A stretch of DNA of 64,000 bases from assembly GCA_016213845.1 (NCBI GenBank), contig JACQZN010000049.1, positions 1 to 64,000 on the forward strand, written 5' to 3'. A program made the position numbers and the translations under genes. The notes beneath the pieces are model-generated. The model was not told where the DNA came from and did not search any database. It saw only the letters and a list, made by a program, of their open reading frames with translations. The number at the start of each line of letters is the position of its first letter. The stretch's first letter is position 1. Below are positions 97-64,000 of this stretch, in pieces. The stretch comes from Candidatus Wallbacteria bacterium. Lineage in GTDB: Bacteria; Muiribacteriota; UBA6191; JACPRK01.

Positions 97-488
97 GAGC
101 CGCCACCCGGCGTCCCGCCCTGGGCACCCGGACTGCCGGGTCCCGTGCCGGCGCCGTCATTCTCCTGGGGCTCGCCCGGCGGTGCGCCATCCTCTCCGTT
201 GCCGACGCCGTTGTTCCCGTTGCTTCCGCTACCGGAGCCGCCGACCCCACCGCCGTCACCGTCTTCCTCGCTCGATTCGCCCGAGTCCGAACTGCCCGAG
301 CCCGTGTAGGCCAGGATGTTGTCCGCCGACGTCTGCAGCGTGGCGCTTGCGCGGGTTCCAATCAACTGGAACGTAGTCAAGGCCAGCCCAGCAAAGAACG
401 CCAGTAGCAGCACATACTCTGTAATGCCTGCGCCGCGCCGGTTCCAAACCTGCGGATGCTTCACTGCCAGACCTCCAACATCGGTCAT
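1..488 (-). CDS. Flp-type pilin-like secreted protein with Gly/Ser/His-rich tail (C-terminus beyond window)
   Basis: The frame opens with ATG at 488-486 and stays open to the window edge, so the C-terminus is missing. Residues about 17-40 read RRGAGITEYVLLLAFF, a class III (Flp/TadE-like) prepilin signal. Cleavage after Gly would leave Glu at +5 and Tyr at +6, followed by a hydrophobic helix. After about 35 more residues the protein becomes acidic and then almost entirely Gly/Ser/His/Asn, with short repeats such as GGHGSSGGS. Flp pilins are usually 50-70 residues, so this one is at least 162 residues and unusually tailed. It is divergent from the ATP-grasp gene. Processing by a prepilin peptidase is inferred. 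Confidence 0.6.
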   Translation of the reverse strand, partial: MTDVGGLAVKHPQVWNRRGAGITEYVLLLAFFAGLALTTFQLIGTRASATLQTSADNILAYTGSGSSDSGESSEEDGDGGGVGGSGSGSNGNNGVGNGEDGAPPGEPQENDGAGTGPGSPGAQGGTPGGGSEGGSGGHGSGGGSESSGGHGSSGGSGGHGSS

Positions 489-578
489 GATAACCCAGGA
501 ACCGCGACACCGCAGCCCACTCGACCCATTCGGTGATTCGTGGTACAGATCGAGAGCACACGCCACCGAGGAGGCATC

Positions 579-1991
579 GTGACTAGCCGCTCCTTCGAAG
601 TCGAGCCCCACGACGACACTCACCCGCTCGAGGCCGAGGCTGCTGCCCGGTTCATCGCCCTGGCGCCATCGGAACGGGAGCGGCTGATGGACCGACTCGA
701 GCACGAGCAATGGGCCCGCGGCTTCACCTACGAGCGCGACGGCAAACCAGGCCTGATCTCGCTGGGAACGATGCCGATCGTGCTCGCAGATTCGCTTGCG
801 AGCCGGCTCTTCGAAGTGGCCATGGCGGTTCGTCGCTTGATGGCAAACCTGCCCGATCTTTGGCTCGCCAGCGAGAGGGTCCGCCGGCTGATGCCGTTCT
901 CCGAGTCGGAGGCTCGCTGGATTCGTGACACGTGGACCCCCGCCCATCATCGCGCCCAGGGTATCGTCTCCCGCCTGGACGCCGACATCAAGCTCAGCGG
1001 CGAAGGCGCTGCGTCGACTCGATTCTTCGAGTACAACGGAGTGGCCTGCGGCGGCCTCTACTATGCCGAAGTCGCCGAGACACTGGCCGAGCAGGTCCTG
1101 CTGCCCGAGCTCGGGCTGAGCGGGTTGCGCCGCCCTCCCCGAATCCCCCAGATGATCTCGAATGAGCTGCGACGGCAGGCCACCGCCATCGGCCGGTCCG
1201 GCAATCGGGTACTGCTGCTGGAGAACAAGGACTGGGACAGCGGAATCACCGAGGCCCCGCAGTTCGTGCGAATCTGGCGCGAGCTGGGCCATGAGGCCGT
1301 GATTGCCGATCCCCGAGACCTCGAGCTCAGGGGCGACGACATTTTCTTCGAGGGCATCGCCTACGACCTCTTCTATCGCCACATGGAGGTCAGGGACCTC
1401 CTGGACCTGGAGGAAGTCCGTCCCCTCGATGCCGCCCGTCACGCGTTTCGAACCAATCGGGTCGTCAGCTCGCTTTCGGGGGAGTTCGATCACAAGTCCG
1501 CCTGGGAGGTCCTCGACGATCCGGCCAACGCCGGTTTCTTCTCTACGGCGGACCTGGCGCTTGTCACGCCGCATGTTCCCTGGACACGTGTCGTCCGGCC
1601 CTGCCGGACCCGCCTTCCCGACGCCTCCGAGGGGGATCTCTTGGCCTACCTCTCGAGAAGCCGCCAATCACTGGTCATCAAACCAAATCGAGAGTGCGGC
1701 GGCGTCGGCGTGACAATGGGTCCGCGCACCACCGATTCCGAGTGGTCCACCGCCATTCAGACCGCACTCGCGGCCCCGGGCGAGTGGGTCGCGCAAGCCC
1801 TGATCGCCAACGCCTCTAAGCGGTTCCCCGTGCCCGACTCCGATTCCGGTTACCAGGTCTCCCCGCGCTACGTCGCCTACGGTTTTGCCGCTACTCGAGA
1901 CGGTCTTGGCTGCCTGGGCCGTTACAGCAGCAGCCCCGTCGTCAACGTGAGCATGGGTGGCGGCATCGTCCCCGTGATGCGCGCGCCCTGA
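579..1991 (+). CDS. ATP-grasp-like protein (circularly permuted ATP-grasp type)
   Basis: The product is 470 residues. I chose GTG at 579 because a GAGGAGG box (568-574) precedes it at ordinary spacing; the in-frame ATG at 540 has no such box. Near residues 130-165 is a segment with RLDADIKLSGEG and FFEYNG, resembling the substrate and metal part of circularly permuted ATP-grasp proteins. The segment VIKPNRECGGVGVTMG near residue 370 looks like the ATP-grasp nucleotide lysine and glycine loop, and WVAQALI follows it. This family ligates amines or amino acids to carboxylates using ATP. The substrate cannot be read from the sequence. The gene stands alone, divergent from the pilin-like gene, and ends at a terminator. 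The family call is by motif only. Confidence 0.55.
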   Translation: MTSRSFEVEPHDDTHPLEAEAAARFIALAPSERERLMDRLEHEQWARGFTYERDGKPGLISLGTMPIVLADSLASRLFEVAMAVRRLMANLPDLWLASERVRRLMPFSESEARWIRDTWTPAHHRAQGIVSRLDADIKLSGEGAASTRFFEYNGVACGGLYYAEVAETLAEQVLLPELGLSGLRRPPRIPQMISNELRRQATAIGRSGNRVLLLENKDWDSGITEAPQFVRIWRELGHEAVIADPRDLELRGDDIFFEGIAYDLFYRHMEVRDLLDLEEVRPLDAARHAFRTNRVVSSLSGEFDHKSAWEVLDDPANAGFFSTADLALVTPHVPWTRVVRPCRTRLPDASEGDLLAYLSRSRQSLVIKPNRECGGVGVTMGPRTTDSEWSTAIQTALAAPGEWVAQALIANASKRFPVPDSDSGYQVSPRYVAYGFAATRDGLGCLGRYSSSPVVNVSMGGGIVPVMRAP

Positions 1992-2046
1992 GCCGGCAGG
2001 CACCGGGCAACGCTCGGGCTGAGCATGCCGAAGCCCGCCCCTAAAA

Positions 2047-2078
2047 GAGGCCGCCGGAGAGTGCTCTCCGGCGGCCTC
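2047..2078. terminator. Rho-independent terminator between convergent genes
   Basis: A perfect 14-bp inverted repeat (2047-2060 and 2065-2078, gaggccgccggaga arm) surrounds a 4-base loop. On the minus strand it is followed by TTTT (2046-2043), a short U-tract, so it should stop transcription of the 24-kb minus-strand gene run. It may also act on the plus-strand ATP-grasp gene that ends at 1991, although the plus side has only gttct after the stem. Confidence 0.85.
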
Positions 2079-2100
2079 GTTCTACAACCGAATCGCGTAA

Positions 2101-5100
2101 CTACTGGTTGCTCTCGAGCGTGAGCGGCGCGCTCTGCGGGCTGCCCAGCAGGTAGCCCATCCCACGCCGGATCTCGAAGGAGCCCGTCGAACCCGGGACG
2201 AACGGCTGGAACGTGCCGCGGCCCGTCGCCGGGTCGCGGCCCGTCTGCACCACGAAGGAGGCACCGAGCTGCTCGGCAAGATCGCGTGAGTCGTGGTTCT
2301 CGGGAACGTCTCTGGGATACCCGATGGTGTTGACGCCACGACCGACCTCTCGATCCGCCTGTTCCTCCTCCCACTGGACGCCGCGGAACTGGAATTCCCG
2401 CTCGGTCCGATTTCCGCGACTGCAGATGTAACCTTCGTTACCCGTGACATTGAAGCCCGGCGTCAGGTCCGGCAGGAAGACGCGGAACCGCGGCTGTCCG
2501 TCGGCTCCAGTCTCCGTGCGAACGACCCAGTCGAGCCCCATGTCACGCGAAAGCGCTCCTGCATCGTAGTCCGTGCCGTCATTCGTGACCGGCCGCAACG
2601 GAACCGAGATCAGATTGACGCCCGGGAGCAGATCGATTCCCACGGGCGGCTCAAGCTTGGAGCGGAAATCTCTCTCATGCTCGCCCGCTGCGATTCCGCG
2701 GCGACCGATGCTGAACACCGGCGGGGCCACGGCCACCGAAACGCCGCCTGTGGTTGTGAGGCGCGCCTCGAACTTGTCACCAGGCGCTGCGACCGCCGTC
2801 TCTGCGCTGGTGAACTCCACGGAATACCGGCCCGTAGCGCGGTCGACCTCGGAGGCGACCTCCAGCCCGCGCGTCACGTTGCGAATCGTCAGCGTCAGTG
2901 GCTCCGTCGGGACCTCGCCTCGAGGCGCCGATCGGACCTTTCCGTAGATCGCAAGCCTGTCGGTGTCCTCCACGGCGTCTTCCAGGTAGATGGACCGTCG
3001 GGCCGTGTTGCTGAGTCCCCGGCCGATCGCCTTGAGAGCGATCTCGTTACGGCCGGGCTTCAACCTCTTGGCGTCCAGCGCGAAGCTCTCGCCCACGCCG
3101 ATGGTCCGCGGCGGATTGCCCAGGGACCAGACCAGGCGTCGTCCGGAGAGCCGGTTGCCGTCTTCGTCCGTACCCTGGCCTCGGAACTCGATCTTGTCAT
3201 CCGGGAAGAACCGCGCGTTCTCGTCGGGCTTCAAGATCTCGACCGTCACGTCTTCCTTGGCTGGAGGTGCCGTCAGCAAGTCCTGCGTGATCTCTCCGGC
3301 CTGCACTTCACCTGCTGTCACTACCCGGCTAGCCGGGTCGGAAACCTGCAGCCGCTCACCCTTGTCCGAGAGCACCTCGAACACGAGTGTGTCACCGTCC
3401 ACTACCAGGAAGCGGTTGGCGCCGAGACCGCCGAAGGTAGTGCTGAAGCTCCCATCCTCAGACGACGAGGACGGAGTGACCGAGGGCGAAGACACGGCCC
3501 GGCGCGCCTTGTTGATGGCGCGAACCTTGAAGCCCGGGCCGACCGGGTTACCGGAGGAGTCGAGCACCAACCCGTTCACCACGAACTGGGTCGCACCGAT
3601 GCGCCGCTCGCCAACGCTGATCTCGAGCGTGACCTGGTTGTTCCCGGTGTTCTGCTCCACGTTCGACGGGTCGGAGGAGTCGATGCGCACGACCACCTTG
3701 TGCTGCCCGACCGACGCGAACGCCGGCAGGGGCAAAGGTCCGACCTTTCGCACCTGCCGTGCACCGATGCCATCCAGAGTGAAGACCGTCGTGGGCGTGG
3801 TCGGCAGGGCGCCGTCCGCGCTGGCTTCTGGATCGACATAGGCCCTCAAGACGCAGCCGGGAGACCCGGTCGCGCCCCGATTCGCCAGCAAGACACCCAG
3901 ATCCAGCGGCTGTCCCTGCTCCGGGTCCCCGGGGACCACGGCAGCGTGCTCAATGACCAGGTCGTAGCCGCTGGCTTCAGTACCGCTGACGAAGAACTCG
4001 TGCACGCGGGTGTTGTTCTCTTCCACGATTTCGCCAATCGCGTTGCCGTCGTCGACGAACACCACGACGTTGTGCTGTCCCTCGGTGAGCGGTCCGAACG
4101 TGACCGGCTTGAGCGGGAAGACCGAATCGGGCGCCATGTGATCGATCGTCAGTGTCGTCAGCAACGTGCCGTTGGACGCCGCCGTTCGATCCAGGTAGAG
4201 GCTGACCGTAAACGTCGTCACCGGAGTGCCGCCCCGGTTGGCGACCGCGGTCTTGACCTCGATGGTGTCCGAAGTGCCCGGGCGGAACGGATTGATCTGC
4301 ACCAGCGCCGGCACGAGGTCCGTGCGGGCAAACCGATCGTCGGTGACCCGGCCGACGCCGAAGGGCGCGGGCCTGGAGTTGTTACCTTCCTCCTGCTCGT
4401 CGACCTCATTGCCCGTGTCGACGGATAGGACCAAGTCATAGCGACCCTCGGGGAGCGGACCGAAGTTCACCGGCGGGATCGGGCGCCCCGTGAAGGGCGG
4501 CAGATTCTCGACGGTCCCGGTTGCAATGACCGTGGCGGAGGCGTTCTGCCGGAACAGCAGGTCCGCCTGCTCCACGTGCGTCTCGAGCCTCAGCTCCCAA
4601 TTGAACTTCGCAGCGGGGGCGCTGCCGCCGTTGCCGACGGAGAAGAACGCAGTCAGTTCGGTCGAGCTGGTCGCGATCTCCGGCTTCACCGAAATCGGTC
4701 CCGGCACGATGTCGGCCTTGTCCTGACGCCCGGCGAAGGACTTGACCCCGATGAGGTAGGTTCCCGTCTGGAAGGAGAACGGAGCCGAAACGATGGCGTA
4801 GTAGGGACCGTCGTCCTCGGCCTGGAAGCTCACGTGGGACCCGCGTCCCTGTCCGAGGTCCCTGCGAATGGCCCGGCCCGTCTTGTCGCGAATCTCGAGG
4901 ATCGAATCGAAGAGGCCCTCGAGACCCACACCCACTTCGTAGAACTTCCCGGTCGCCGTCGCAAAGACGAAGACGTCACGATCTCCCAGCGGCTGCTTCT
5001 TCTGCAGTCCGGCCATGATGGGCGGCACGTCGACCGCCAGTCCATCGCGCCCGGGCTGCACCTCGGCGATGTTGTCCGCATGGTCATCTTGCTCGGCCTG

Positions 5101-48410: not shown

Positions 48411-48953
48411 CTACGGCTCCGGTAGCGGATTCCAGGTCTTATCGGTCCTCAGGTTCTTGAGGAAGAGCACCTTGGCGAAATCGGTCGGGGCATTGTCCGC
48501 CTCGATCTCGAAGCGCACGCTGACATGGATGTTCGAGGCGCTGCGCAAGGTGCCAGGCTTCACGTCGAAGGCCTTCAGTTTGTCGAGTCCGAACTTGCGG
48601 TGCTCTTTGTCGGCCGCCGGACCCGAGGTCTCCAGGCGCCGATGGATGGTCCCGCCTTCGCGTTTGTAGGTGACCCGGACAGGGACGGAGCGATAGGGGT
48701 TTCGCTCGACCTTGAGGATGTCGAGCTTCAGCTCCCCGGCGGCGGCGTTCCAGACCGGGGACTTCCGAAGTGCCTGCACATCGAGCTTGAGGGATTGAAA
48801 GAGAAGGTTGGCCTCCCCGATGTACTCGAGCTTGCCTTCGCCTCGAACCATTCCGCGGCGGCTGCTCACCAGGAGCGTATAGAGCACGGCCATCAGCATC
48901 ACGGCCACGCCGAACGCCAGCAGCGCCTCCACCAGCGAGAACCCGCGCCTCAC
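48411..48953 (-). CDS. Prepilin-type protein (GspJ/PilW-like minor pseudopilin)
   Basis: 180 residues. The start is GTG or the adjacent codons: GTG 48953-48951 overlaps the stop of the upstream pseudopilin gene (GTGA). The N-terminus reads MRRGFSLVEALLAFGVAVML, a type IV prepilin signal with cleavage after Gly and Glu at +5. The rest is a beta-rich domain with LLFQSLKLDVQALRKS. It fits a GspJ/PilW-like minor pseudopilin. It is the last gene of a four-gene operon with a LysM protein, a GspK-like protein and another pseudopilin. Confidence 0.75.
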   Translation of the reverse strand: MRRGFSLVEALLAFGVAVMLMAVLYTLLVSSRRGMVRGEGKLEYIGEANLLFQSLKLDVQALRKSPVWNAAAGELKLDILKVERNPYRSVPVRVTYKREGGTIHRRLETSGPAADKEHRKFGLDKLKAFDVKPGTLRSASNIHVSVRFEIEADNAPTDFAKVLFLKNLRTDKTWNPLPEP

Positions 48954-49405
48954 CGATCCACCTTCGTCTTGAGCGCCACCAGCTCGATGCGGCGCTTCTC
49001 CTCGTCGCCCCCGCCTTGCCAGACGACCTTGATGCGCACCGTCTTCACGCGGAACTTTCCCTTCCCGTCAATCGTCGCAGAGACATCCTCCTTGGGATCG
49101 ACCTCGACCGTACGCGTGTAGAGCGGCGAGCCGACCGGCATGTTCGTCGCAATCTCGCCCGGCAGAGCGGCGTCGACCTCCTCGTACCCGAGCGCGCCGA
49201 CGGCCTCGACGACGTCGTCGGCCAGGAGGAAGGCCTTCGTCTGGTGCAGCGTCTGGGCCGTCCCCTGGTGGCCGGCGATCAGCAGCCCGAGAAGCGGCAT
49301 GAGCGCGATCGACAGGAAGATGACGGCGACCACGATCTCGGTCAGGCTGACGCCCGCCCTGCCGGGTCGCCGCCCGCCCATCACATCCGCTCGAGCACGC
49401 CTCAT
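48950..49405 (-). CDS. Prepilin-type protein (GspI/PilV-like minor pseudopilin)
   Basis: I chose ATG 49405-49403, which overlaps the upstream stop (ATGA). 151 residues. A signal of about 20 residues precedes GVSLTEIVVAVIFLSIALMP, giving cleavage after Gly and Glu at +5. Then LLADDVVEAVGALGYEEVDA resembles the GspI/PilV pattern of Ala-Glu-x-x-x-Gly after the helix. Short C-terminal beta domain (FRVKTVRIKVVWQGGG). Translational coupling on both sides shows it works with the two flanking prepilin-like proteins. Confidence 0.75.
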   Translation of the reverse strand: MRRARADVMGGRRPGRAGVSLTEIVVAVIFLSIALMPLLGLLIAGHQGTAQTLHQTKAFLLADDVVEAVGALGYEEVDAALPGEIATNMPVGSPLYTRTVEVDPKEDVSATIDGKGKFRVKTVRIKVVWQGGGDEEKRRIELVALKTKVDR

Positions 49406-51636
49406 TGCACCATCAGGAAGTCGTCGGAGTGGTCGACACAGAGCGACCATCCCGGATCGATCTTCTTGGACTCCTTGAGCCACGGCCCCACTTTGAAGTT
49501 CGGGTTGTACTGCAAGAAGGACACGGACTTGGCCTGGAAGCTCTTTTGAAAATCGATTCCCTGGGCGATGATCGCCCCGAAGAGCTGCAGTCCCTTCGGC
49601 GCCTCGATCAACCCCTTCGGCGCCACCAGGATCGCCTGCACCGCGTGGCGGTCCGCGATCCGGATGTTTCCCTTCCGCGCCACCAGCATCAGCGGCGGCT
49701 TGTCGGGGTCTCCCGGCCCGTCCCCTCCCACCAACGGCGAGGCCACGTCGAACTCATCGGCGACGAGCACCCCACCGCGCTTGATGTGGTGGATTGCCCC
49801 GAGCGGGAAGGGGCCGTCCTTCTCCCAGACCAGCACGGTCCCCAGATCCAGCGTGTCGCCTCCGACCAGGTACCCCTCGTCGGCCAGGAAGCGCGTTGGG
49901 TTGTCGGCCTCTCCCGAGCGGCGGCAGACTTTCAACATGTCGGGGAACGAGGTCGCCAGGCTGTTCACCACGCTCTCGAGCTCAGCCTCGCCGATGCCGT
50001 CCTGCTCGGCGTCGGGCAAGAGTCCCGCGACCAGCTTCGTCCTGGGATCGGAGTCGTCCTTCGGAGTGAAAAACTCCTTTGGAACCTTCGACACCCCGAC
50101 CCCCTTCTGCACGGGGAAGGCCTCGTGGTTCTCGCTGGAGAGAAACAGCATGCCCTGGTTGTAGGGTCGCGTCGCCACGCGAGAGGCCATCTGCGAGTAG
50201 ACTTGCGGGCTCACCGAGGGATCGGCTGCCAGCGTCCGCGTGGCGGGATCGACGAACAAGAACTTGCCCGGATTGTAGATGTCGGCCGCGCCAGCGACGT
50301 CGTCGAAGGTCCCCGCCGACACCGGCACCGCCGCCCTGAACTGCGCCATCGGGATCGGATCGGGCGGCATCGGCAGCAGCGTGAAGAAGGCCGCGGCCGT
50401 GGTGTCGTCCACCGCGGTCTTCAAGCTCGCCGCCGTCAGCCGCAGCAGCCCCGCCGAGACTTTTCCCAGCACCAGCGTCGGGCTGATCCGGTTCCTGGGC
50501 GCGCCCATCAAGTGCAGGACGCTGGAGAGCAGCTTCTGCGTGACGTCGGGTGGCCCGAACGCCTTGCGCGAGCTGTCGAGCTCCGGCCCGTCGAGCCGCG
50601 AGATCCCCATGTCCCAGAACCGGACCGACCAGGGCGAGCCCGCCGGCAACTTGGCATTGACGTCGTCGTCGATGTAGCTGCGCTGAGCAGTCTTGGGGCC
50701 GGGACCGGCCGCCTCGTGAAAGAACAGGAAGTCCTCGCCCGCCTGGGCCGCGTTGTCGGTTTCGTCGTGGCTGAACGCGTGATTCAAGATCAGGTCCCCG
50801 CGCGCTCCGAGATAGACCCAGCCCTGGCTGGCCAGCCGCTCGCCCGTCAGGCCCTTGAAGGCGCTGGCGTCGTCGACCTCGCCGTTGTTCAGCACCAGCG
50901 GGCCCTTGCCGTCCGCCACGAGCCCGTGGAAATCGGTGTTCGCGGAGTTGATCAGCTCGGGGCTGCAGGCCGGGTTGGTCGGGTCCGAAAGAAACAGCGT
51001 GAAGTGGTTGAAGAGCGGCAAGAGCGGCGAAACGACCCGATACTCCATGAACCCGAGTAGCCTTCGCGAAACACCCTCCAGCAGAGCTCCGACCTTGAAG
51101 ACGCTCTCCACCTCGATGAAGAGGCGCCCGTACTTCTGGCGCACGTCCTGCAATCCCTTGGTCCAGCCATGCGGATCGAAGGCGAGCGAATCGTCCGGCA
51201 GCGCATAGAATCGCGCCTTGAGTGTGCCGACGTTCGCGACGCCGCCCTCGAAGGATTGCGCCACCCGATCGACCAGCGGCAGGTAGTCGGTCTTGAAGTC
51301 GATTTCCCCCAGCGGGATCGGCTTTCCAGAGCTCCACGCCGGGTCGTCCATCGACTTCATCAGCGCCTTCGAGATGGCAGATTCCGGGTCGAGCAACCCG
51401 GCCTGCACCTCGGCCTTCGAAAGTTCCATCGCTGCCCGGGCCAGCGTGTAGGCGAACTCTCCGAAGAGCTGGCGGTACTGCAGCAGCCGTCGCCCACGCA
51501 TGAAGGAGAAGTAGCTGAAGACGCCAATCGTCAGGACCAGAAGGACGAAGAAGACGACGATGGTGGCGATACCGCGCCTCGTGGGCCGGAATCTTCTCTC
51601 GCCACCGGAAGCGTGTTGGCTATCGCGTCGTGACAC
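49402..51636 (-). CDS. GspK/PilX-like large tip pseudopilin candidate
   Basis: I chose GTG 51636-51634. It overlaps the end of the LysM gene by 17 bases, and GGAGG sits about 12 bases upstream. 744 residues. After a basic leader comes TRRGIATIVVFFVLLVLTIG, which looks like a prepilin-type signal without Glu at +5. GspK and PilX-type proteins at the pilus tip also lack it. The following helix LFGEFAYTLARAAMELSKAEV is typical of the PilX/GspK N-terminus. The remaining 680 residues are not a known family to me. They contain several beta-rich parts and late motifs such as VAPKGLIEAPKGLQLFGAI. This is much longer than GspK (about 300). A tip role is inferred from order and signal. Confidence 0.6.
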   Translation of the reverse strand: MSRRDSQHASGGERRFRPTRRGIATIVVFFVLLVLTIGVFSYFSFMRGRRLLQYRQLFGEFAYTLARAAMELSKAEVQAGLLDPESAISKALMKSMDDPAWSSGKPIPLGEIDFKTDYLPLVDRVAQSFEGGVANVGTLKARFYALPDDSLAFDPHGWTKGLQDVRQKYGRLFIEVESVFKVGALLEGVSRRLLGFMEYRVVSPLLPLFNHFTLFLSDPTNPACSPELINSANTDFHGLVADGKGPLVLNNGEVDDASAFKGLTGERLASQGWVYLGARGDLILNHAFSHDETDNAAQAGEDFLFFHEAAGPGPKTAQRSYIDDDVNAKLPAGSPWSVRFWDMGISRLDGPELDSSRKAFGPPDVTQKLLSSVLHLMGAPRNRISPTLVLGKVSAGLLRLTAASLKTAVDDTTAAAFFTLLPMPPDPIPMAQFRAAVPVSAGTFDDVAGAADIYNPGKFLFVDPATRTLAADPSVSPQVYSQMASRVATRPYNQGMLFLSSENHEAFPVQKGVGVSKVPKEFFTPKDDSDPRTKLVAGLLPDAEQDGIGEAELESVVNSLATSFPDMLKVCRRSGEADNPTRFLADEGYLVGGDTLDLGTVLVWEKDGPFPLGAIHHIKRGGVLVADEFDVASPLVGGDGPGDPDKPPLMLVARKGNIRIADRHAVQAILVAPKGLIEAPKGLQLFGAIIAQGIDFQKSFQAKSVSFLQYNPNFKVGPWLKESKKIDPGWSLCVDHSDDFLMVQ

Positions 51637-52174: not shown

Positions 52175-53473
52175 ATGCGGTTGCGGCAACTGAGCGTGGG
52201 GGCCAAGCTCGGGATCGCCCTGGCGACGATCTATGGATGCGCGCTGGCGGCTGTCCTGGTGGCGGTGCTCTCGCACCACGAAGCGACGCTCTCGGAGAGG
52301 TGCCGGGAGGAGCGGCGGGCCGTGCTGGGGACCCTGGCACACCTGGCACAGCGTCCCTTCGCCCCATCGGAGGAGCGTGAGCTGGGACAGATGCTGGCGA
52401 CACAGGAAGAGGCCTGGCGCGCCACCAGCTTCAGCGTGCGCTGCTCGGTCGTCGGGATCGGGTTGCTCTCCGTGGCCGTGGGGCTCTTCGGCGCGCTGCT
52501 GCTGGCGCGGCTGGTCACCGCTCCCATCTCGCGGCTGCGCGAGGACATGCTGGAGCTGGCCCGCGGAGGCTTGCCGCCGGTGCCGCCCCCGTGCCAGCCG
52601 TCGCGCTTCGAGGTGATCAGCTGCGAGCGCGCCGGAGCAGCCCCCGCGGCCCGCGGGTTCCTCGAGGGGCTCCTGGCAGACCAGGGGGATGAGCTCTACC
52701 AGCTCCGACAGGGATTCCAGTTGATGGTGTACGAACTGCAGCAGCGCATGGCGGAGCTCGAGCAGAGCACCAAGGAGCGGGAAGTCGCCAAGCGGCTGGG
52801 CGAGATCGGGGCCCTGGCCGCCACGGTGGCGCACGAGATGCGCAACCCGCTCAACACCATCGAAGGCGCCGTGTACCACCTGAAGCGGACCTATTCGCAG
52901 AACTCGGACATCGCCGAGTATGCCCAGCTGGTCCAGGAACAGGTTGAGCGCCTCACCAGCGTCAGCGCACACCTGCTCGACGCCACGCGCCCGCTGGCGC
53001 CCGACCGCCAGCCGACCGACCTCAACAGCCTGGTGCGCGACACGGCGCTCAGGCTGGTCAGCGAATCGGCCGCCCAGAAGGTGAGCCTCGAGTTCCGCTT
53101 CGCCCCGGAGCTCCCGTGCGTACCGGTGGATCGCATCCAGATGAAGCAGGTGGTCGAGAACCTGGTGGAAAACTCGCTGCAGGCGATGCCCGACGGCGGC
53201 AAGGTCGTCCTCGAGACGGCCGTCCACGAATCGGGCGACATCCTGCTGCGGGTAGCCGACGACGGTCCCGGAATCCGCATGGAGCTCCGCGAGCGCGTCT
53301 TCGACCCGTTCTTCACCACGCGAACGACGGGAACGGGGTTGGGTCTCTACATCGTCAGCCGCATCGTCGGAACGCACGGCGGCTCCGTGAAGCTCGACGG
53401 CTCTCCCGGACCGGGCGCCCGCTTCGAGATTCGCCTGCCCGGCCCCGAGCTGGCCGTGGCCGCGGCCGGGTAA
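52175..53473 (+). CDS. Membrane sensor histidine kinase
   Basis: 432 residues. Membrane helices about 10-33 and 88-110 flank a short periplasmic sensor domain, followed by a HAMP-like linker and a coiled coil. Then HisKA with VAHEMRNPLNTIEG (the phosphorylated His near 225), N box ENLVENSLQAM, DDGPGI, DPFFTTRTTGTGLGLYIV and GARFEIRLPG. It ends 7 bases before the NtrC-type regulator, so the two form a cognate pair. The AAGGAGG box is about 15 bases from ATG 52175, longer than ideal. Confidence 0.9.
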   Translation: MRLRQLSVGAKLGIALATIYGCALAAVLVAVLSHHEATLSERCREERRAVLGTLAHLAQRPFAPSEERELGQMLATQEEAWRATSFSVRCSVVGIGLLSVAVGLFGALLLARLVTAPISRLREDMLELARGGLPPVPPPCQPSRFEVISCERAGAAPAARGFLEGLLADQGDELYQLRQGFQLMVYELQQRMAELEQSTKEREVAKRLGEIGALAATVAHEMRNPLNTIEGAVYHLKRTYSQNSDIAEYAQLVQEQVERLTSVSAHLLDATRPLAPDRQPTDLNSLVRDTALRLVSESAAQKVSLEFRFAPELPCVPVDRIQMKQVVENLVENSLQAMPDGGKVVLETAVHESGDILLRVADDGPGIRMELRERVFDPFFTTRTTGTGLGLYIVSRIVGTHGGSVKLDGSPGPGARFEIRLPGPELAVAAAG

Positions 53474-53479
53474 ACCGTC

Positions 53480-54874
<1,395 letters not shown>

Positions 54875-56375: not shown

Positions 56376-56963
56376 TCAGTTGTCGGTGACGACGATGACG
56401 CGCTGGTACTTCAGGAAGTCCCACTTCGCCGCCGCGTCGACTACCGCAGCCGCGGAGGCATCGTCCAGGATGCCGTCTGAGTTGAAATCGGAGCCGATGG
56501 CTGCCAGTTTGACCACCAGCGGGTTCTCGCCGGCCTGGGGGGCCTCGGTGGCCGACTTCATGTCGCCGGCGTAGGTGATGACGCCATTCTCCTGGGCGTA
56601 CTCGAAGTTGCTCTCGAAGTTGCCGTAGACGAGCTGCCCGCTCTGGGAGTAGAACCGCGGCCCCATGCCGCGGGACAGTTGGGTGCCGCGAGCGTCGATG
56701 ATGAGCCCGGTGTGGGCGCCCTCGGGCGGGATGCCGATCGAGCCACCCGGCCGCGCGGCGGTGGCGATCTTCATCTTCGAACCCTTGGACTTGCGGGCCG
56801 CCTTCTTCTTCATGGCGTGCGCGCTGGACTTCTTCGACTTGGCCTTGTCCGGGCCAAGCCCCTCGAAGGCCGGCGTCGCGGCCCACGCGACGGGCTGCGT
56901 CACGAGCGCCAAGGCCAGCAACTTCGAAATTGTCGTTCGATTCAGTTTCAGCAAGCCAAACAC
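56376..56963 (-). CDS. Secreted protein with FlgT/LPP20-like TGLIIDARG domain
   Basis: 195 residues. GTG 56963 follows AGGAGG at a 7-base spacer. Signal peptide (LLALALVTQPVAWAA), then a Lys-rich segment. From about residue 85 there is HTGLIIDARGTQLSRGMGPR, FYSQSGQLVYG, FEYAQENGVITYAGD and NPLVVKLAAIG. The TGLIVDARG..MxPxIY..G..VYG pattern is found in LPP20/FlgT-like envelope proteins, and some of these belong to flagella. It ends the minus-strand flagellar region, so a periplasmic flagellar accessory is plausible. The final VIVVTDN suggests a beta strand closing the domain. Confidence 0.6.
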   Translation of the reverse strand: MFGLLKLNRTTISKLLALALVTQPVAWAATPAFEGLGPDKAKSKKSSAHAMKKKAARKSKGSKMKIATAARPGGSIGIPPEGAHTGLIIDARGTQLSRGMGPRFYSQSGQLVYGNFESNFEYAQENGVITYAGDMKSATEAPQAGENPLVVKLAAIGSDFNSDGILDDASAAAVVDAAAKWDFLKYQRVIVVTDN

Positions 56964-57033: not shown

Positions 57034-57780
57034 TCACTTCTCCATCTCCTGGATCAGCTGCTCGAGGTCGACCGTCACCGAGCCCGCCGCGGGGGCCGGA
57101 CGCCGCCGCGCCGGCGAGCGCAACTTCACGGGCGGATGTGCCAGCTCCGCGGTGGCCCGCGCACGGGCCGCCACCGGCGCGGACGGCTCCTCGAAGGCCG
57201 CCAGCGTTGGGTCGTCCACCTCATCCGGCTGCCCGGCTACTGGCGCGCGGTCGTGCTGAGCCATCCTTTCGCGGACAGTGGCCAGGAGCTGCTCGCGGCG
57301 ACGGGGGTCGGCCTGCGACTCCACGGTGGTCACCAGCTGGGTGCGCGCCTGTTCGAGCTCCTCGCGAAGAGACTTGTAGAGCACTTCCGAGCTCGAGAGC
57401 AGCCCCGCGAGGCGTTCGAAGTAGCGGCGAATCTGCTCGCCATCTTCGGGAAATCGCTCCTGGAGACTTGCCCGGAGCTCGTCCACCTTGTCGACCTTGC
57501 TCCGCAGCGACTGCATCGTGCGAGCGGAGCCACCCCCGATGACCTGCAGGTCGGCCGCGACGCGGGACGCCGAGGGCGGGCCCTTGTCGAGCCGTGCGCC
57601 GAGCTGAACCTGGTCGATGCGGCTCTGGTAGTCGACGAGCTGCTGGTGGCTTGCCCGGAAGTCTTTCTCGATATCGCCGAGGATGTCGAGCACTTCGCTC
57701 GCCACGGCGACGCCTGTCGTCAGGCAGCAGCAGGCCGCGGCGATGCCGAGTCTGCCGATGAACGAACGCGCTGGGGGCAT
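57034..57780 (-). CDS. Secreted coiled-coil protein near flagellar genes
   Basis: 248 residues; ATG 57780 has AAGGAG six bases upstream. Signal peptide (LGIAAACCCLTTGVAVAS). Residues about 30-160 are a long helical region (EVLDILGDIEKDFRASHQQ, VDKVDELRASLQERFPEDG, LREELEQARTQLVTTVESQ), likely a coiled coil. The C-terminal half is Ala/Pro/Arg-rich. I do not recognise the family. It lies between flhF and the TGLIIDARG protein, on the same strand. The 274-base gap to flhF holds no gene I can support. Confidence 0.5.
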   Translation of the reverse strand: MPPARSFIGRLGIAAACCCLTTGVAVASEVLDILGDIEKDFRASHQQLVDYQSRIDQVQLGARLDKGPPSASRVAADLQVIGGGSARTMQSLRSKVDKVDELRASLQERFPEDGEQIRRYFERLAGLLSSSEVLYKSLREELEQARTQLVTTVESQADPRRREQLLATVRERMAQHDRAPVAGQPDEVDDPTLAAFEEPSAPVAARARATAELAHPPVKLRSPARRRPAPAAGSVTVDLEQLIQEMEK

Positions 57781-58054: not shown

Positions 58055-59488
58055 TCACGCCGCGGGGGAGACGCCGTCGGAGGCTTCGACCTGCGGACGG
58101 GCCGGCAGCAGCTCCGGCGTCAGGCCGCGCTTGCTGAACGCCATCGAGGCCAGCGTCACGGCGTCGGCCTCGAGAATGTCGTCGGGGACGCATTGCCCGG
58201 TCGTCATGTAGCTGGCGCCCTCGCGGTGCCCCGCGAGCAGGGAGACGACGGAGCCGAAACAGGAGGTTTCGTCGGTCTTGGTGACCAGCACCTTCTGGAA
58301 GCCAAGCTCCTTGAACCCGGCGGTGATTCCCCGCAGGTCGGAGAGCTTCGTCAAGGCGCTGACCAGCAGGTGCGTCTCGATCGGCATGCCGAACTCGAGG
58401 AACTTCTTCAGATCGAGCAGGTCCTCGCGATTGCGGGGGCTGCGGCCCACCGTGTCGATCAGGATGACGTCCTTGTTGCGGAAGCCGTGGACCAGCTCGA
58501 TCATCTCCTCGGGCTTGAAGACGACCTTGACCGGGACCTCGACGATCTCGGCGTACTTCTTGAGCTGCTCCGGAGCCGCGATCCGGTAGGTGTCGATGGT
58601 GATGAAGGCGACGTCGAGCCTGTGGTTGAACATCAGGCCGCCGGCAAGCTTGGCCAGGGTCGTGGTCTTGCCGACGCCGGTTGGGCCGACCAGGGCGACG
58701 AGCTTGCCCTTCTGACCGCCGACGAGCCCGAGTCCACCGGCCACGGAGAGCCGGGAGGCCAGGTACTCGACGGCGCGCTCGCGGACCCGGGAAGGCTGGC
58801 GCAGCTCCCGCTCGGAGAGGGCCTCCACGAGGTACTGGCGCACCTCGCAGATGAGGTCGTCGGCCAGCTCATTGGCGCGCAGAGTCTGCATCGCCAGCTC
58901 GACGTACTGCAGGTCCCGGGCGGGGGCCGGGTCCCGGATGAGGATCATCGGTCCGACCGAGCCGCTGTCCGTGGCGAGGGCGTCGGAGGGAGAGCCGGAA
59001 CAATCCGTTCCGGTCGGTCCCTCGGGGCTCGACGAGGGCGGTGCAGAAACCGGTCCGGCGGGCGGTTCCGCCGGTGACGCCTTGAGCTGACTCAAGACAT
59101 CCTTCAAGTCTTTCAACTCCGAGAGGACGGAGAGCTGCTGCTTGATCTGGAGGATCTCGTCCTTCATCAGGACCAGCTCCTGCGACGGGGGGGGCGGGGC
59201 GAGCTGCGCCGGCGGGTCCGACCGCAACTGCGGAGAGGGGGCAATCTCGGCGACGCCGGAGCTGAGCAGCTGCCGGGCGGCCTCGACGGTCGGATGGGAG
59301 CGCGCCTCGCCGCTGGACCGATCGGCGCGCACGCCGACCACCTCGATCCATTCCCGGCGGAAGAAGCCGAAGATGCCGCCTCGCTTGTGGGCGGCGGCGT
59401 GGACGATCTCGACCTCGGGCCCGAGCTCCTTGCGGAGCTTCTCGTAGGCTTCCTGTCGCGTGGGCGCGGTGACTCTCCGGATCAGCAT
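58055..59488 (-). CDS. flhF: Flagellar-biosynthesis SRP-type GTPase FlhF
   Basis: 477 residues. An N-terminal basic B domain (RRVTAPTRQEAYEKLRKELG and GGIFGFFRREWIEVVGV) is followed by a variable Ser/Pro/Gly linker. The SRP-type NG GTPase from about 230 has GPTGVGKTTTLAKLA, DTYRIAAPEQLKKYAEI, ILIDTVGRSPRN and VTKTDETSCFG. FlhF is membrane-associated and sets the place and number of flagella together with FlhG. Two FlhG-type ATPases lie directly upstream. This is the usual flhA-flhF-flhG neighbourhood but with the order flhA, flhG-like, flhG-like, flhF in the direction of transcription. Confidence 0.9.
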   Translation of the reverse strand: MLIRRVTAPTRQEAYEKLRKELGPEVEIVHAAAHKRGGIFGFFRREWIEVVGVRADRSSGEARSHPTVEAARQLLSSGVAEIAPSPQLRSDPPAQLAPPPPSQELVLMKDEILQIKQQLSVLSELKDLKDVLSQLKASPAEPPAGPVSAPPSSSPEGPTGTDCSGSPSDALATDSGSVGPMILIRDPAPARDLQYVELAMQTLRANELADDLICEVRQYLVEALSERELRQPSRVRERAVEYLASRLSVAGGLGLVGGQKGKLVALVGPTGVGKTTTLAKLAGGLMFNHRLDVAFITIDTYRIAAPEQLKKYAEIVEVPVKVVFKPEEMIELVHGFRNKDVILIDTVGRSPRNREDLLDLKKFLEFGMPIETHLLVSALTKLSDLRGITAGFKELGFQKVLVTKTDETSCFGSVVSLLAGHREGASYMTTGQCVPDDILEADAVTLASMAFSKRGLTPELLPARPQVEASDGVSPAA

Positions 59489-59523: not shown

Positions 59524-60483
59524 TCAGGACCTGCGGAAGAGGCCGGCGAGGCGCTCGAAAAATCCTGGCTGGTTCGCGGGGGCGGGCGGGGCCGGCGAGT
59601 CGAACAGGCCGGCGACTATGTTGGTGATGCAGACCGAAGCGTACGAGTTCGGATAGAGCATCACCACGGGCTTCTGGCGCCGCACGCTGAGGCTGACGTT
59701 CTCGTCCTCGAGGACGAAGCCGGCGTAGTCGACCCTGAGCTGCAGATGCTCGCGCGCCACCTTGCTGAAGCGCCGCGCAACCAGCAGCCCCTCCTCGGGG
59801 TCCTTGACCTTGTTGACGACGATCGACGTCCTCGGCACGCTCGACCCCTCCATCGCCAGCGTCTTGAGGACGCCATAGGCGTCGGCCATCGCGGTCGGCT
59901 CGGGGGTGGTGACGAGCAGGACTTCGTCGGCCGCGCGCACGAAGGAGAGGACGTTGCGGGAGAGCCCCGCCCCGGTGTCGATGAGCAGCACGTCGGAGTA
60001 GGACTCCAGGCGTCGCAGGTTTTGCAGCAGCTCGCCCATCGCCCGGTCGTCGAGGTCGGCCAGCTCGGCCATACCGCTGCCTCCGGCGATGAACTTCACG
60101 CCCGGAGGTCCGCTCACCAGGATTCCCGGCAAGTCGCGCTTGCCCTTGAGGACGTGGTACAGCGTGTACTGGGGACGCACACCGAAGAGCACGTCCAGGT
60201 TGGCCATGCCGAGGTCGGCGTCGAAAGCCAGAACGGACTTGCCAAGCCGCGTCATCGCGACGGCCAGGTTTGCGACCATGCTGCTCTTGCCGACGCCGCC
60301 CTTGCCGCTCGTCACGGTGATGACGCGGGCGCGCTTTGCCTGGACAGGCTCGACCGCCTGTGGCGCTGGCGGGGCAGGCCGCACCGAGGGCAGGGCGCGG
60401 AGCCCAGGAGCGGGATCGCGCCGACGGGGCGCCATCATCGCGTGCGAGCTGGCCTGGGTTCGGCTGGGCTGGGTCATGGTCAT
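59524..60483 (-). CDS. FlhG/MinD-type ATPase, paralogue lacking the DQA motif
   Basis: 319 residues. A Pro/Ala-rich leader (about 1-50) is followed by the MinD fold with the deviant Walker A ([20 protein letters not shown]), switch I and II (FDADLGMANLDVLFG, LLIDTGAGLSRNVL) and TPEPTAMADAYGVLK. A C-terminal amphipathic helix (FFERLAGLFRR) could bind membrane, as in MinD and FlhG. The FlhF-activating DQAxxLR motif seen in its neighbour is absent, and its N-terminus has only SRTQASSHAMM. Gap to flhF is 35 bases. It may act in a dimer or partnership with the upstream paralogue. Confidence 0.8.
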   Translation of the reverse strand: MTMTQPSRTQASSHAMMAPRRRDPAPGLRALPSVRPAPPAPQAVEPVQAKRARVITVTSGKGGVGKSSMVANLAVAMTRLGKSVLAFDADLGMANLDVLFGVRPQYTLYHVLKGKRDLPGILVSGPPGVKFIAGGSGMAELADLDDRAMGELLQNLRRLESYSDVLLIDTGAGLSRNVLSFVRAADEVLLVTTPEPTAMADAYGVLKTLAMEGSSVPRTSIVVNKVKDPEEGLLVARRFSKVAREHLQLRVDYAGFVLEDENVSLSVRRQKPVVMLYPNSYASVCITNIVAGLFDSPAPPAPANQPGFFERLAGLFRRS

Positions 60484-60627: not shown

Positions 60628-61572
60628 TCAGTGAAACCAGCCGGCGAGCCGTTCCAGGAAGCCTCTGAACCCTCCGTGGCCGGTCTGCTCGCCCTCCAGC
60701 AGCTTGGCGCCGATCTCCCGTATGCCAGCTGCCGCGCTACTGTCCGGGTAGGCCAGAATCAGCGCCTTCTGCTCGCGCACGGCGCTGCCAACGGCGGAGT
60801 CCTCGCGCACCGAACCGATCGCCTTCAGGTTCGCGGCCAGAAATCGCTTCACCACAAGCCCGAGCTTGTCGTGAACCGCCTTGGCTTCGAAATCGCGGCG
60901 CACCCGGTTGACCACCAGTCGCACGTCGACACCCGGGTTGGAAGCGTAGAGCGCCTTGATGATGCCGTAGGCGTCCGCCATCGCGGGCGGCTCGGGCACG
61001 GTCACCACCAGCACCGTGTCGGCAGCCAGCGCGAAGCCGAGCACGTTCTTGCTGATGCCGGCGGCCGTATCGATCAGCACGAAATCGGCGTCCTGCGCCA
61101 CCCGATGAAAGGCCGTCAGGAGCCTCTCCCGCGCAGCGTCGCCGAGGTCCGCAAGCTCCGCGACGCCGTTGCCCCCGGGGATGATGCGGATGCCCTCCGG
61201 CCCTTCCACCATCACTTCTTGCAGCGTCCGCGCCCCGGACAGCACGTCCATCACGCTGAACACCGCGTGCAGCCCGAGCGCCACCGTCACGTTCGCCAGA
61301 CCCAGGTCCGCGTCCATGATCAGCACCCGCTTGCCCCTCTTCGCCAGGGAGAGCGCCAGGTTGATCGTGAGGTTGGTCTTGCCGACGCCGCCCTTGCCGC
61401 TCGTCATCGCCAGGACCCTGGGGCCTCGAGCCGGTGCCGCAAAGCCCGGAACCGAGGCCGATACGGGCTGGCGCGCCAGCTCTCGGAGTTTGACAGCTTG
61501 GTCTCTCATCGGCCCTGCAGTTCCCTCGATGCCCCGAAAACCGTTGGGCTCCGGACGAATCGCACTCATCAT
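60628..61572 (-). CDS. flhG: FlhG-type MinD ATPase with DQA motif
   Basis: 314 residues from ATG 61572; an inner ATG at 61509 would give [12 protein letters not shown] at the very N-terminus, which is where FlhG proteins keep the DQAxxLR helix that stimulates FlhF GTP hydrolysis. MinD motifs: [67 protein letters not shown] and [13 protein letters not shown]. The C-terminal amphipathic helix (FLERLAGWF) is kept. It lies 24 bases downstream of flhA and 145 bases before the second paralogue. Controls flagellar number. This copy is the better FlhG ortholog candidate. Confidence 0.85.
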
Positions 61573-61596: not shown

Positions 61597-63552
61597 CTAG
61601 ATTTGTTCGGTCGCGCCCACGATCGCCAGCGCCGGCCGGCCTTCCGCGGGCCCGCCGATCCGCCTCCGCAGCTCCGGCCTCACCTCGCGGGAGATCTCCC
61701 GGCGCGACAGCACCGCCAGCTCCGGGAGCCAGTGTCCGAACAGGTTCCTCACGTGCCGGCGCAGCGTCGGCTTCGTCAAGAGCACCGGGCGCAGCCCGTC
61801 CTTCTCGAAGGCCTCGCAGCCGTCCGTCAACATCCCCAGGAGCGACTGGAGCCTTTGAGGTGAGATGGCCAGGAAGTCCTCCTGGGCGACATAGGCACCC
61901 TCGAGCTCCTTCTCCAGATCATCGGCCAGCACCATCACCGGCAAGCTCCCCGCCGCCGTCCGGAGGTGGCCGGAGACCTGCCGGGCCAGCGCGGCGCGCA
62001 CGCATTCCGTCAGGAGCGCAGGCTGCTTGGCCAGCTCCTTGGCGCTCGCGACGGCCTCCAGGATGCCGGCGGCGTCGCGGATGCCGACTCCCTCGGCGAG
62101 CAGCCCGCGCAAGACGGCCAGGAGCGCGCCCCGATCCACACCGTCCACCGCCTCGAAGAGCGCCGGCTTCGCCCGTCTCACTTGACTCAACAGGTCTTCC
62201 AACTCCTGACGACCCATGAGCTCGTCCGCGTAGGCTCGCACCTTCTTGGCGACGAAGGCGGCGATCCGGCCCTCGACCGGCTCTCCGGCCTCCCGGCTCC
62301 CCGGGAGACGCCCCTCCCCGACCTGCTGCCCACGCAGGTCGAGCGTGTAGCTCAGTCGCGTGAGCCCCTCGTCGACGGTGACGCTGATAGGCGGCACGGC
62401 CAGCCCCAGCTCGTCCCTGATCTGGCGCCGCACCTGCGACAGCTCGGCGTCCAGCCGGCCGCCCTTCTCCTGGAGAGCCTCGAAAACGCCTTGCGATAGC
62501 CGGACCTCTAGCGGCCGGAACCCGAGCTCCCTGGGGGCCGCGGCGGCCGTCACCTCGAGCTGGTCGGGCTCGACGGAGAGTCCCTTCCAGGCGGCCCAGC
62601 CGAAGATCCCCGCCAGCGCGACCAGCGGCAGCCCGGCCACGCCGGCCGAAAGGCCGCAAACGGCGAGCAGACTGCCGACCACGCCCGCAGCCCCGGCCAT
62701 CGGGCGGGTGCTCGAGAAAACCTGGGCGACTGTTTCGCCGGCGACGCTCTGGCCGCTGGCGCTCTTGGTGATGAGCAGTCCTGTGGCGAAGCTGATCAAG
62801 AGCGACGGCACCAGCGAGGCGAGCCCGTCGCCGACGGAAAGCAATGCGAACGTTGAGGCGACGCGGGCCCAGTCGCCGCTGTCATTCGACCAGCCGAAGA
62901 CCAGCCCGGCGCCCAGGTTCACACCGAAGATGGCGATGCTGGCGATGGTCTCGTTCTTTACCCAGCGCGAGGCCCCGTCCATGTGGCCGAAGAAGTCCGA
63001 TTCGCGGTGGACCTGGTCGACCCGTTCCTCGGCCTCGGCGGCGGTGATCTGGTGGCTGTCGAGCTGGGCCTGGACCGCCATGAGCTTGTGGGGGAGACCG
63101 TCGAGCCGGAACCTGGCGGCAACCTCCGCCACGCGCTCGGAGCCCTTGGAGATGACCTGATACTGGATGCAGACGAGGATGAAGAAGAGCACCAGTCCGA
63201 CGGCCAGACTGCCGCCGACGACGAAGCCGCCGAAGGCGCGGATCAGGATTCCCTCGAACTCCGCCCCTTGCGTCAGGATGAGGCGGGTAGAGGCGACGTT
63301 CAGGCTCAGGCGGAGAAAGGTGAGCACCAGCAAGAGCGTGGGGAAGCACGACAGGTCCAGCGTGCGGCGCACGGAGCTGACCATCAGCAGGCACATCACT
63401 GCCATCGCCAGGTTCAGCACCAGGGCCACGTCCAGGAGTCTGGCCGGAATCGGGACGACCAGCACCAGGATGATGCCGACCAGACCCAAAGGTACGAGTG
63501 ACTCCGCTTGCCGCTGAAGCGCGGCGGCGTCCACGCCACATCTGTTGCTCAT
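61597..63552 (-). CDS. flhA: Divergent FlhA, flagellar type III export gate protein
   Basis: 651 residues, a little shorter than typical (about 690). GGGGAGG precedes ATG 63552. Eight membrane helices in the first 300 residues, LLVLTFLRLSLNVASTRLIL and ISKGSERVAEVAARF show it is FlhA/SctV-type. The FHIPEP core is altered: canonical MPGKQMAIDADL becomes LPHKLMAVQAQL (residues 153-164), and MDGASKFVxGDA becomes MDGASRWVKNET (191-202). Thus two conserved Asp are Gln and GD is NE. The C-terminal cytoplasmic domain (about 320-651) is present and ends with LPELAVLSRREIS. FlhF/FlhG neighbours favour FlhA over a virulence-type SctV. Confidence 0.85.
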   Translation of the reverse strand: MSNRCGVDAAALQRQAESLVPLGLVGIILVLVVPIPARLLDVALVLNLAMAVMCLLMVSSVRRTLDLSCFPTLLLVLTFLRLSLNVASTRLILTQGAEFEGILIRAFGGFVVGGSLAVGLVLFFILVCIQYQVISKGSERVAEVAARFRLDGLPHKLMAVQAQLDSHQITAAEAEERVDQVHRESDFFGHMDGASRWVKNETIASIAIFGVNLGAGLVFGWSNDSGDWARVASTFALLSVGDGLASLVPSLLISFATGLLITKSASGQSVAGETVAQVFSSTRPMAGAAGVVGSLLAVCGLSAGVAGLPLVALAGIFGWAAWKGLSVEPDQLEVTAAAAPRELGFRPLEVRLSQGVFEALQEKGGRLDAELSQVRRQIRDELGLAVPPISVTVDEGLTRLSYTLDLRGQQVGEGRLPGSREAGEPVEGRIAAFVAKKVRAYADELMGRQELEDLLSQVRRAKPALFEAVDGVDRGALLAVLRGLLAEGVGIRDAAGILEAVASAKELAKQPALLTECVRAALARQVSGHLRTAAGSLPVMVLADDLEKELEGAYVAQEDFLAISPQRLQSLLGMLTDGCEAFEKDGLRPVLLTKPTLRRHVRNLFGHWLPELAVLSRREISREVRPELRRRIGGPAEGRPALAIVGATEQI

Positions 63553-63568: not shown

Positions 63569-64000
63569 TCAGGTTCGCGGGGCGCCGATGGCGCTCCCGG
63601 GTGTCGAGTTCACGATGGAGTTCGGAGTCCGGAGCTTTGCCCGCGCGCGCGGTCCGGGCTCCGCGGCGGTGCGCCGCTCGATGGCCTCGAGGATCTGTCC
63701 CCGCACGTGCGGGTCGCCCTCTGCCATCTTGAAGTCGTCCTTCACCTCGACGCGCGTCATCCGCTGCGAGGCAGCGAAGCTGGCGCGCGCCAGGAGGTGT
63801 TCGGCCGTACCGAACGCCAGCCAGGTCACCGTCAGCCAGAGCGCGAGCCGCAGTGCGCCGGCCAGCACGCCAGCCAGCTCCTGGGCCGGCGTGATCGCGG
63901 GGAATGCCGCCCAGACAAGGGCGGCGACGGCCGCGAGCTTGGCCGCGATCCAGGCTGTGTTGGCAGCCAGGTTGGGCAGCGCCAGGCGGGTCCAGGGCAG
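63569..64000 (-). CDS. flhB: FlhB (N-terminus beyond window), ending before the autocleavage domain
   Basis: The open frame runs off the right edge. It contains two membrane helices (LAAVAALVWAAFPAI and LRLALWLTVTWLAFG) and then RMTRVEVKDDFKMAEGDPHVR, the highly conserved FlhB juxtamembrane segment (usual: MxxxEvKdE.K..EGdP). In FlhB a cytoplasmic domain with the NPTH self-cleavage site should follow. Here only about 30 more residues remain (KLRTPNSIVNSTPGSAIG...) before a TGA at 63571-63569. FlhA starts 16 bases later, leaving no room for the domain. It may be encoded elsewhere, or the switch function is lost. Confidence 0.8.
   Translation of the reverse strand: MPWTRLALPNLAANTAWIAAKLAAVAALVWAAFPAITPAQELAGVLAGALRLALWLTVTWLAFGTAEHLLARASFAASQRMTRVEVKDDFKMAEGDPHVRGQILEAIERRTAAEPGPRARAKLRTPNSIVNSTPGSAIGAPRT

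Follow-up and report, generated by a model that had tools for sequence, protein, structure and literature searches.

A variant FlhA in what is probably a flagellum-derived type III export apparatus retained after loss of the flagellum

The FlhA export-gate protein encoded in this DNA lacks acidic residues of the FHIPEP signature, and the locus raises the question of whether its gate works by another mechanism, has decayed, or belongs to an apparatus that has been put to another use. The window, the whole stretch of 64,000 nucleotides that was analysed, belongs to the draft genome referred to here as G000; a second, separately assembled genome of the same genus is referred to as G002. The match of FlhA to its Pfam profile consists of two stretches, the membrane and the C-terminal domains. 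The protein scores 471.5 bits against the NCBIfam FlhA model and 378.8 bits, 93 bits lower, against SctV, both under the equivalog cut-off, which for flagellar FlhA (TIGR01398) is 772 bits. No second flhA was detected in the G000 assembly (6.23 Mb, 83.9% complete); the gene is single-copy within that assembly, and the idea of a normal copy elsewhere in the genome was rejected. FlhA of G002 (643 residues) is 72% identical and lies on its own contig. For the comparison of residues, the G000 protein was aligned with Salmonella FlhA (chain 36hw) and with a comparison set of 33 FlhAs, most of which come from the same phylum. An AlphaFold model built from a three-row alignment reached a mean pLDDT of 49.8 and was uninformative. 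The features of the locus are collected in Table 1.

Table 1. Features of the export-gate locus, in positions of the window; residue names with D refer to Salmonella FlhA.
Feature	Position	Strand	Basis
flhB, C-terminal part in window; 270 aa, without NPTH domain	63569..64000; continues to contig position 64381	-	PF01312 and alignment
flhA, variant export-gate protein, 651 aa	61597..63552	-	PF00771 (E=4.3e-157) and NCBIfam scores
FlhA codons 161-163, QAQ replacing D168-A-D170 of the FHIPEP loop	63064..63072	-	alignment; Q-Q also in G002
FlhA codon 201, Glu at the D208 position, conservative	62950..62952	-	alignment; D208 placed through primers in PMC3139655
FlhA codon 242, Asp kept at the D249 position	62827..62829	-	alignment
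FlhA residues 419-435, 17 aa against 58 in Salmonella; most of dimple segment absent	62248..62298	-	alignment
FleN/MinD-like ATPase 1	60628..61572	-	CbiA/AAA_31 matches; same place in flagellate relatives
FleN/MinD-like ATPase 2	59524..60483	-	profile matches
flhF, SRP-type GTPase	58055..59488	-	NCBIfam FlhF, 187.6 bits, over cut-off

The two FlhA motifs quoted in the preliminary description are exact, with LPHKLMAVQAQL at residues 153-164 and MDGASRWVKNET at residues 191-202. The corresponding motifs of G002 are LAHKLMAIQSQF and MDGASRWVKNET. As the same variant occurs on a separate contig of a separate assembly, an assembly error or frameshift in flhA was rejected, and the substitutions are a trait of the clade. 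Where the FHIPEP signature carries an acidic IDAD, G000 reads HKLMAVQAQ, with H, L, Q and Q in place of G, Q, D and D. Each of the 33 comparison FlhAs has Asp at the D168 position (Salmonella numbering throughout) and Asp or Glu at the D170 position; G000 and G002 have Gln at both. The replacement of DxD by QxQ first read from the sequence is thus real and far from chance. No published test of D168 or D170 was found in the accessible FlhA literature.

The second substitution that had been described, GD to NE, is of a different kind. The primers of Hara et al. (2011; PMC3139655) place K203, R206 and D208 within ASKFVRGDAIAG, and D249 within TIGDGL, and by them the Asp of GD is identified as D208. 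The letters NE are correct, and the description fails only as a loss of acid, since the second position is Glu at D208. Asn at the first position is found in 11 of the 33 comparison FlhAs and is common in the phylum. In Salmonella, D208E was the sole replacement tried at this position that preserved function, export being slowed and not stopped (PMC3139655). According to the alignment R85, R94, R147, R154, D158, D199 and D249 are all retained, and the experimentally critical R94, acidic D208 and D249 are represented by R90, E201 and D242 (cf. PMC3139655). With these residues kept and D208 changed only to Glu, a loss of the proton path is not demonstrated, and neither is the suggestion that a proton-driven gate here works by another mechanism (PMC3139655, PMC8179193). 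One solved flagellar FlhA (12dv) carries Asn in place of D208 and Ala in place of D170. Two further positions, N137 and Q254, have been called essential in a 2026 preprint (PMC13308203). The N137 position is Gln in G000 and in 28 of the 33 comparison FlhAs, and that of Q254 is Leu in G000 and Ile in four flagellate class relatives; as flagellate relatives also differ there, neither position supports a lost proton path and both were dropped as candidates. The FHIPEP loop has been proposed as a contact of the cytosolic domain and as a control of proton flux (PMC8179193), and loss of the DxD would fit a change in how the loop meets the cytosolic domain better than it would fit loss of the proton path.

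The loop is not the only part that has changed. Of the columns that are at least 97% invariant among the 33 FlhAs, both G000 and G002 keep 21 of 23 in TM1-4, 17 of 24 in the FHIPEP loop and 12 of 15 in TM5-8, and just 3 of 11 in the cytosolic domain. The statement that the surrounding sequence is intact holds only for the membrane half and not for the cytosolic domain. The shortened segment of that domain (Table 1) is the region of the chaperone-docking dimple, formed by D456, F459 and T490 (PMC8166844). FlhB matches PF01312 over 2-234 of 335 only and stops after the linker, and G002 FlhB (259 residues) likewise has no NPTH domain. An NPTH-type domain, which serves in rod and hook subunit docking and in specificity switching (PMC8983047, PMC7064499), is present in every other FlhB of the phylum that was aligned. 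A separate, hidden FlhB cytoplasmic domain was rejected, as the flhB stop lies 16 bases (G000) or 85 bases (G002) ahead of the flhA start and the genome contains no other PF01312 match. The M-loop of FliP reads GLAA or GLAG in the genus against GM[MIVL]M in relatives, so that the methionine gasket is gone. Husing et al. found the first and last Met of the gasket to be 99% conserved among about 2500 FliPs, and its loss renders the Salmonella pore leaky or inactive (PMC8239009), which counts against a working exporter here. FliQ retains the E and K of its stabilizing salt bridge. With changes elsewhere in FlhA and in FlhB, FliP and FliF, the reading of the motif as a specific change, as opposed to general decay, was wrong as stated. 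FlhA, FlhB and full-length FliP were seen in two genomes of one genus, the assemblies of the other two genomes of the order (G001 and G003) having no flhA.

The gene content of the order was compared across 40 genomes of the phylum, 4 from this order (two families; drafts, 72-84% complete) and 36 others. Rod/hook domains were found in none of the four and in 35 of the 36 others. The same absence from the order applies to FliE (32 of 36 others), flagellin (34 of 36), the MotB plug (36 of 36) and a separate FliG (34 of 36). The set retained in the order comprises FliF, FliHIJ, a FliN-like protein, FliPQR, FlhB, FlhA, two FleN-like proteins and FlhF, with fliF-fliH-fliI-fliJ found in all four genomes. 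The C-terminus of FliF has a FliG_C-like stretch, which is above cut-off in G002 and G003 and below it in G000 and G001. In G003 the FliF sequence is divided between two overlapping frames that lie beside a run of N (L070 4740-7462, G003:C268), either an assembly gap or a frameshift. Outside the order, two genomes of the phylum (G009 and G016) also have no flagellin match, and G009 no rod/hook match; both have FlhA, FliE and MotB and possibly represent further partial flagellar sets.

These observations are best explained if the order lost its flagellum and retained from it a type III export apparatus, to which the variant FlhA belongs; this reading is considered probable. The tested axial and motor components are absent, yet the frames of the export genes stay open and under constraint, a combination that supports the repurposing raised in the preliminary description. 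The constraint was assessed by comparing nine genes between G000 and G002. No internal stop or frameshift was found in either genome, at a distance where synonymous differences are near saturation. Values of pN/pS are 0.20 for FliI, 0.21 and 0.24 for the two FleN-like proteins, 0.26 for FliP, 0.33 for FlhA and 0.40 for FliQ, and the altered FlhA loop itself gives 0.27-0.28. The MDGASRWVKNET motif differs by five synonymous and zero amino-acid changes. Open frames and low pN/pS argue for genes in use.

A non-functional relic, in which loss of the flagellum has left the export genes to drift, would account for the changes in FlhA, FliP and FlhB as relaxed constraint. It has on its side the higher pN/pS of FliF (0.53), FliR (0.54) and FlhB (0.68), genes which look loosely constrained, and the poorly kept cytosolic domain of FlhA; partial flagellar sets are also found in non-motile bacteria, often enough for surveys to count them (PMC12199754). 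Decay of this kind is nevertheless unlikely in view of the nine frames that stay open in both genomes, the identities of FliI (85%), FliP (81%) and FleN (82-85%), and a motif that varies at synonymous sites only.

It could also be supposed that the core has ceased to export protein and now serves as a scaffold, inner-membrane or polar, or as a platform of nanotube type, whose position and number would be controlled by FlhF and FleN. FlhA and FlhB no longer have their substrate docking sites, whereas FlhF and FleN are well preserved, and FlhA-related inner-membrane structures and a link between core complex and nanotubes have been reported (PMC9380563). However, FliI, FliH and FliJ have been retained, and none of the genes compared is under stronger constraint than FliI, which points to transport and leaves such a conversion improbable.

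That an ordinary flagellum is present, with its remaining genes either absent from the draft assemblies or so diverged that they escape matching, is very improbable. The assemblies are indeed incomplete, and with FlhB, FliR and FliF much diverged the axial proteins could be so too. Incompleteness alone, however, would remove a single gene from all four genomes with a probability of about 0.003, and five component types are absent together, leaving the four genomes with none of the rod, hook, FliE, flagellin, stator and FliG of a working flagellum. Class relatives carry these genes on several contigs. In G000 and G002 the FlhB NPTH domain and the FliP methionine gasket are missing as well, and an FlhB with no switch domain could not build a hook and then a filament in the known way. 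Finally, an unbroken stretch of sequence has no flgB-flgC-fliE where these genes usually stand. In flagellate members of the phylum, xerC-hslV-hslU is followed by flgB-flgC-fliE-fliF and fliI. In G003 the order is xerC-hslV-hslU-fliF-fliH-fliI-fliJ, and hslU and fliF are about 70 bases apart, a junction that resembles a deletion scar, as if flgB-flgC-fliE had been removed.

The origin of the genes can be judged from their order and their family scores. The gate operon FliN-FliP-FliQ-FliR-FlhB-FlhA-FleN-FlhF has the same order in flagellate relatives of the phylum. Flagellar NCBIfam models outscore injectisome models for FlhA, FliR, FliQ, FliP, FliN, FliF, FliH, FliI and FlhB, with the equivalog cut-off reached by FliP and FlhF only; the better fit to Sct models that would mark a non-flagellar T3SS (injectisome) was not found. 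A full-length FlhA tree joins the long branch of this FlhA to another long branch, of injectisome-like type; because long branches meet, it was set aside for placement in favour of the membrane-domain tree, in which the order stands beside flagellate class relatives (support 86/99, not decisive). Acquisition of a Myxo-type or other non-flagellar T3SS by transfer, in place of descent from the phylum's own flagellum, might be read from a list of missing parts that is the same as in Myxo systems (PMC3459982) and from the full-length tree, whose joining may be an artefact, and is extremely improbable against the flagellar scores of every component compared, the operon order and the grouping by membrane domain.

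For the retained, flagellum-derived exporter, protein would still be moved through FliPQR, driven by FliI and the remaining proton-path residues of FlhA. The ATPase, the pore and much of the charge network of the FlhA membrane domain appear to remain, whereas the sites that serve the different classes of flagellar substrate and the switch between them appear to have gone. The cargo may be one or a few substrates of one class, in which case neither FlhB-based switching nor docking of filament chaperones would be needed. Delivery would be across the inner membrane only, with a separate route through the outer membrane beyond, possibly Tad pili.

Genes for Tad CpaB are present in two or three copies in each of the four genomes of the order, and none were found in three flagellate class relatives. 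A full Tad locus of G000 (L107 6336-15287, G000:C123) encodes CpaB, a secretin, a CpaE-like protein, an ATPase and two T2SSF proteins, and its contig carries another CpaB gene (L108 4309-5349); a secretin was seen only inside this locus. The link between Tad and the export apparatus is one of co-occurrence and is suggestive only. Two TadB/TadC-like genes of an unrelated genome are directly followed by a gene that resembles SctV (485 bits against NCBIfam SctV, 453 against FlhA; L035, G047:C2:354000-360000, 233-4012). No candidate substrate of the export apparatus was identified. Just downstream of flhF two small proteins with signal-like N-termini are encoded (window 56376-56963 and 57034-57780, minus strand); they have no Pfam match over cut-off and are possible substrates or accessory parts. 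A histidine kinase and a sigma-54-type response regulator near the gate operon (52175-54874, plus strand) are possible regulators, and three genes at 48411-51636 (minus strand), with no Pfam match, have by eye the look of type II secretion or pilus minor pilins.

The closest known counterparts are found in Myxococcales, whose systems lacking FlgBCDEK, FliEG, FlgH and MotAB were described by Abby and Rocha as derived from a form intermediate between the flagellum and the injectisome (PMC3459982). In Myxococcus a needleless T3SS* acts with the Tad-type Kil pilus (PMC12075869). For the parts tested, the order has the same composition, with gate and ATPase kept and FlgBCE, FliE, FliG and MotAB lost (PMC3459982, PMC12075869); like the Myxo system, it is long conserved and has Tad pili in the host genome. 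In contrast, the components of the order fit flagellar and not injectisome models, its operon still includes FlhF and FleN, FliF has a FliG_C-like tail and, possibly as a further difference, FlhB has no switch domain. For the tested parts the order's system combines the loss pattern of Myxococcales with flagellar sequences.

Other systems are similar in fewer respects. With the Salmonella apparatus the order shares FliPQR, FlhB, FlhA, FliF, FliHIJ and a FliN-like protein, and within FlhA the charged residues listed above from R85 to D249. It differs from Salmonella in having no FHIPEP DxD, FlhB NPTH domain, FliP MMM loop or FlhA docking dimple, and no FliE, rod, hook, filament or stator. The partial flagellar protein sets of Chlamydiota contain FliF, FlhA and FliI. 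These sets likewise occur with no flagellum (PMC12199754), although in Chlamydiae a full injectisome is also present. Lysobacter enzymogenes OH11 is a piliated bacterium with flagellar export genes and no flagellum, and its flagellar T3SS-like genes are reported to export protein and to affect twitching (PMC7277350). It is a single species in which flhB was needed for flagellin export, whereas FlhB is shortened here, and the accessible part of the source describes no change of the FliP gasket or the FHIPEP loop (PMC7277350).

It is possible, as a tentative further step, that a flagellum was converted within this lineage into a non-flagellar exporter that does without FlhB switching, the M-gasket and the FHIPEP DxD, perhaps a Tad-coupled counterpart of the Myxococcus predation complex. 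Such a conversion would be independent, would lie outside the taxa known for it, and would have left deletion scars that are still visible. Injectisomes are thought to derive from the flagellum through an intermediate that kept the gate and had no axial or motor parts, of which Myxococcales were the living example in a 2012 survey (PMC3459982). If true, the present order would add a second case from a different phylum, and flagellate members of its own class would be available for comparison. It would show which losses are linked and which parts of a type III gate are dispensable, and would test the universality of three textbook features, the switch domain of FlhB, the methionine gasket of FliP and the acidic character of the FHIPEP loop.
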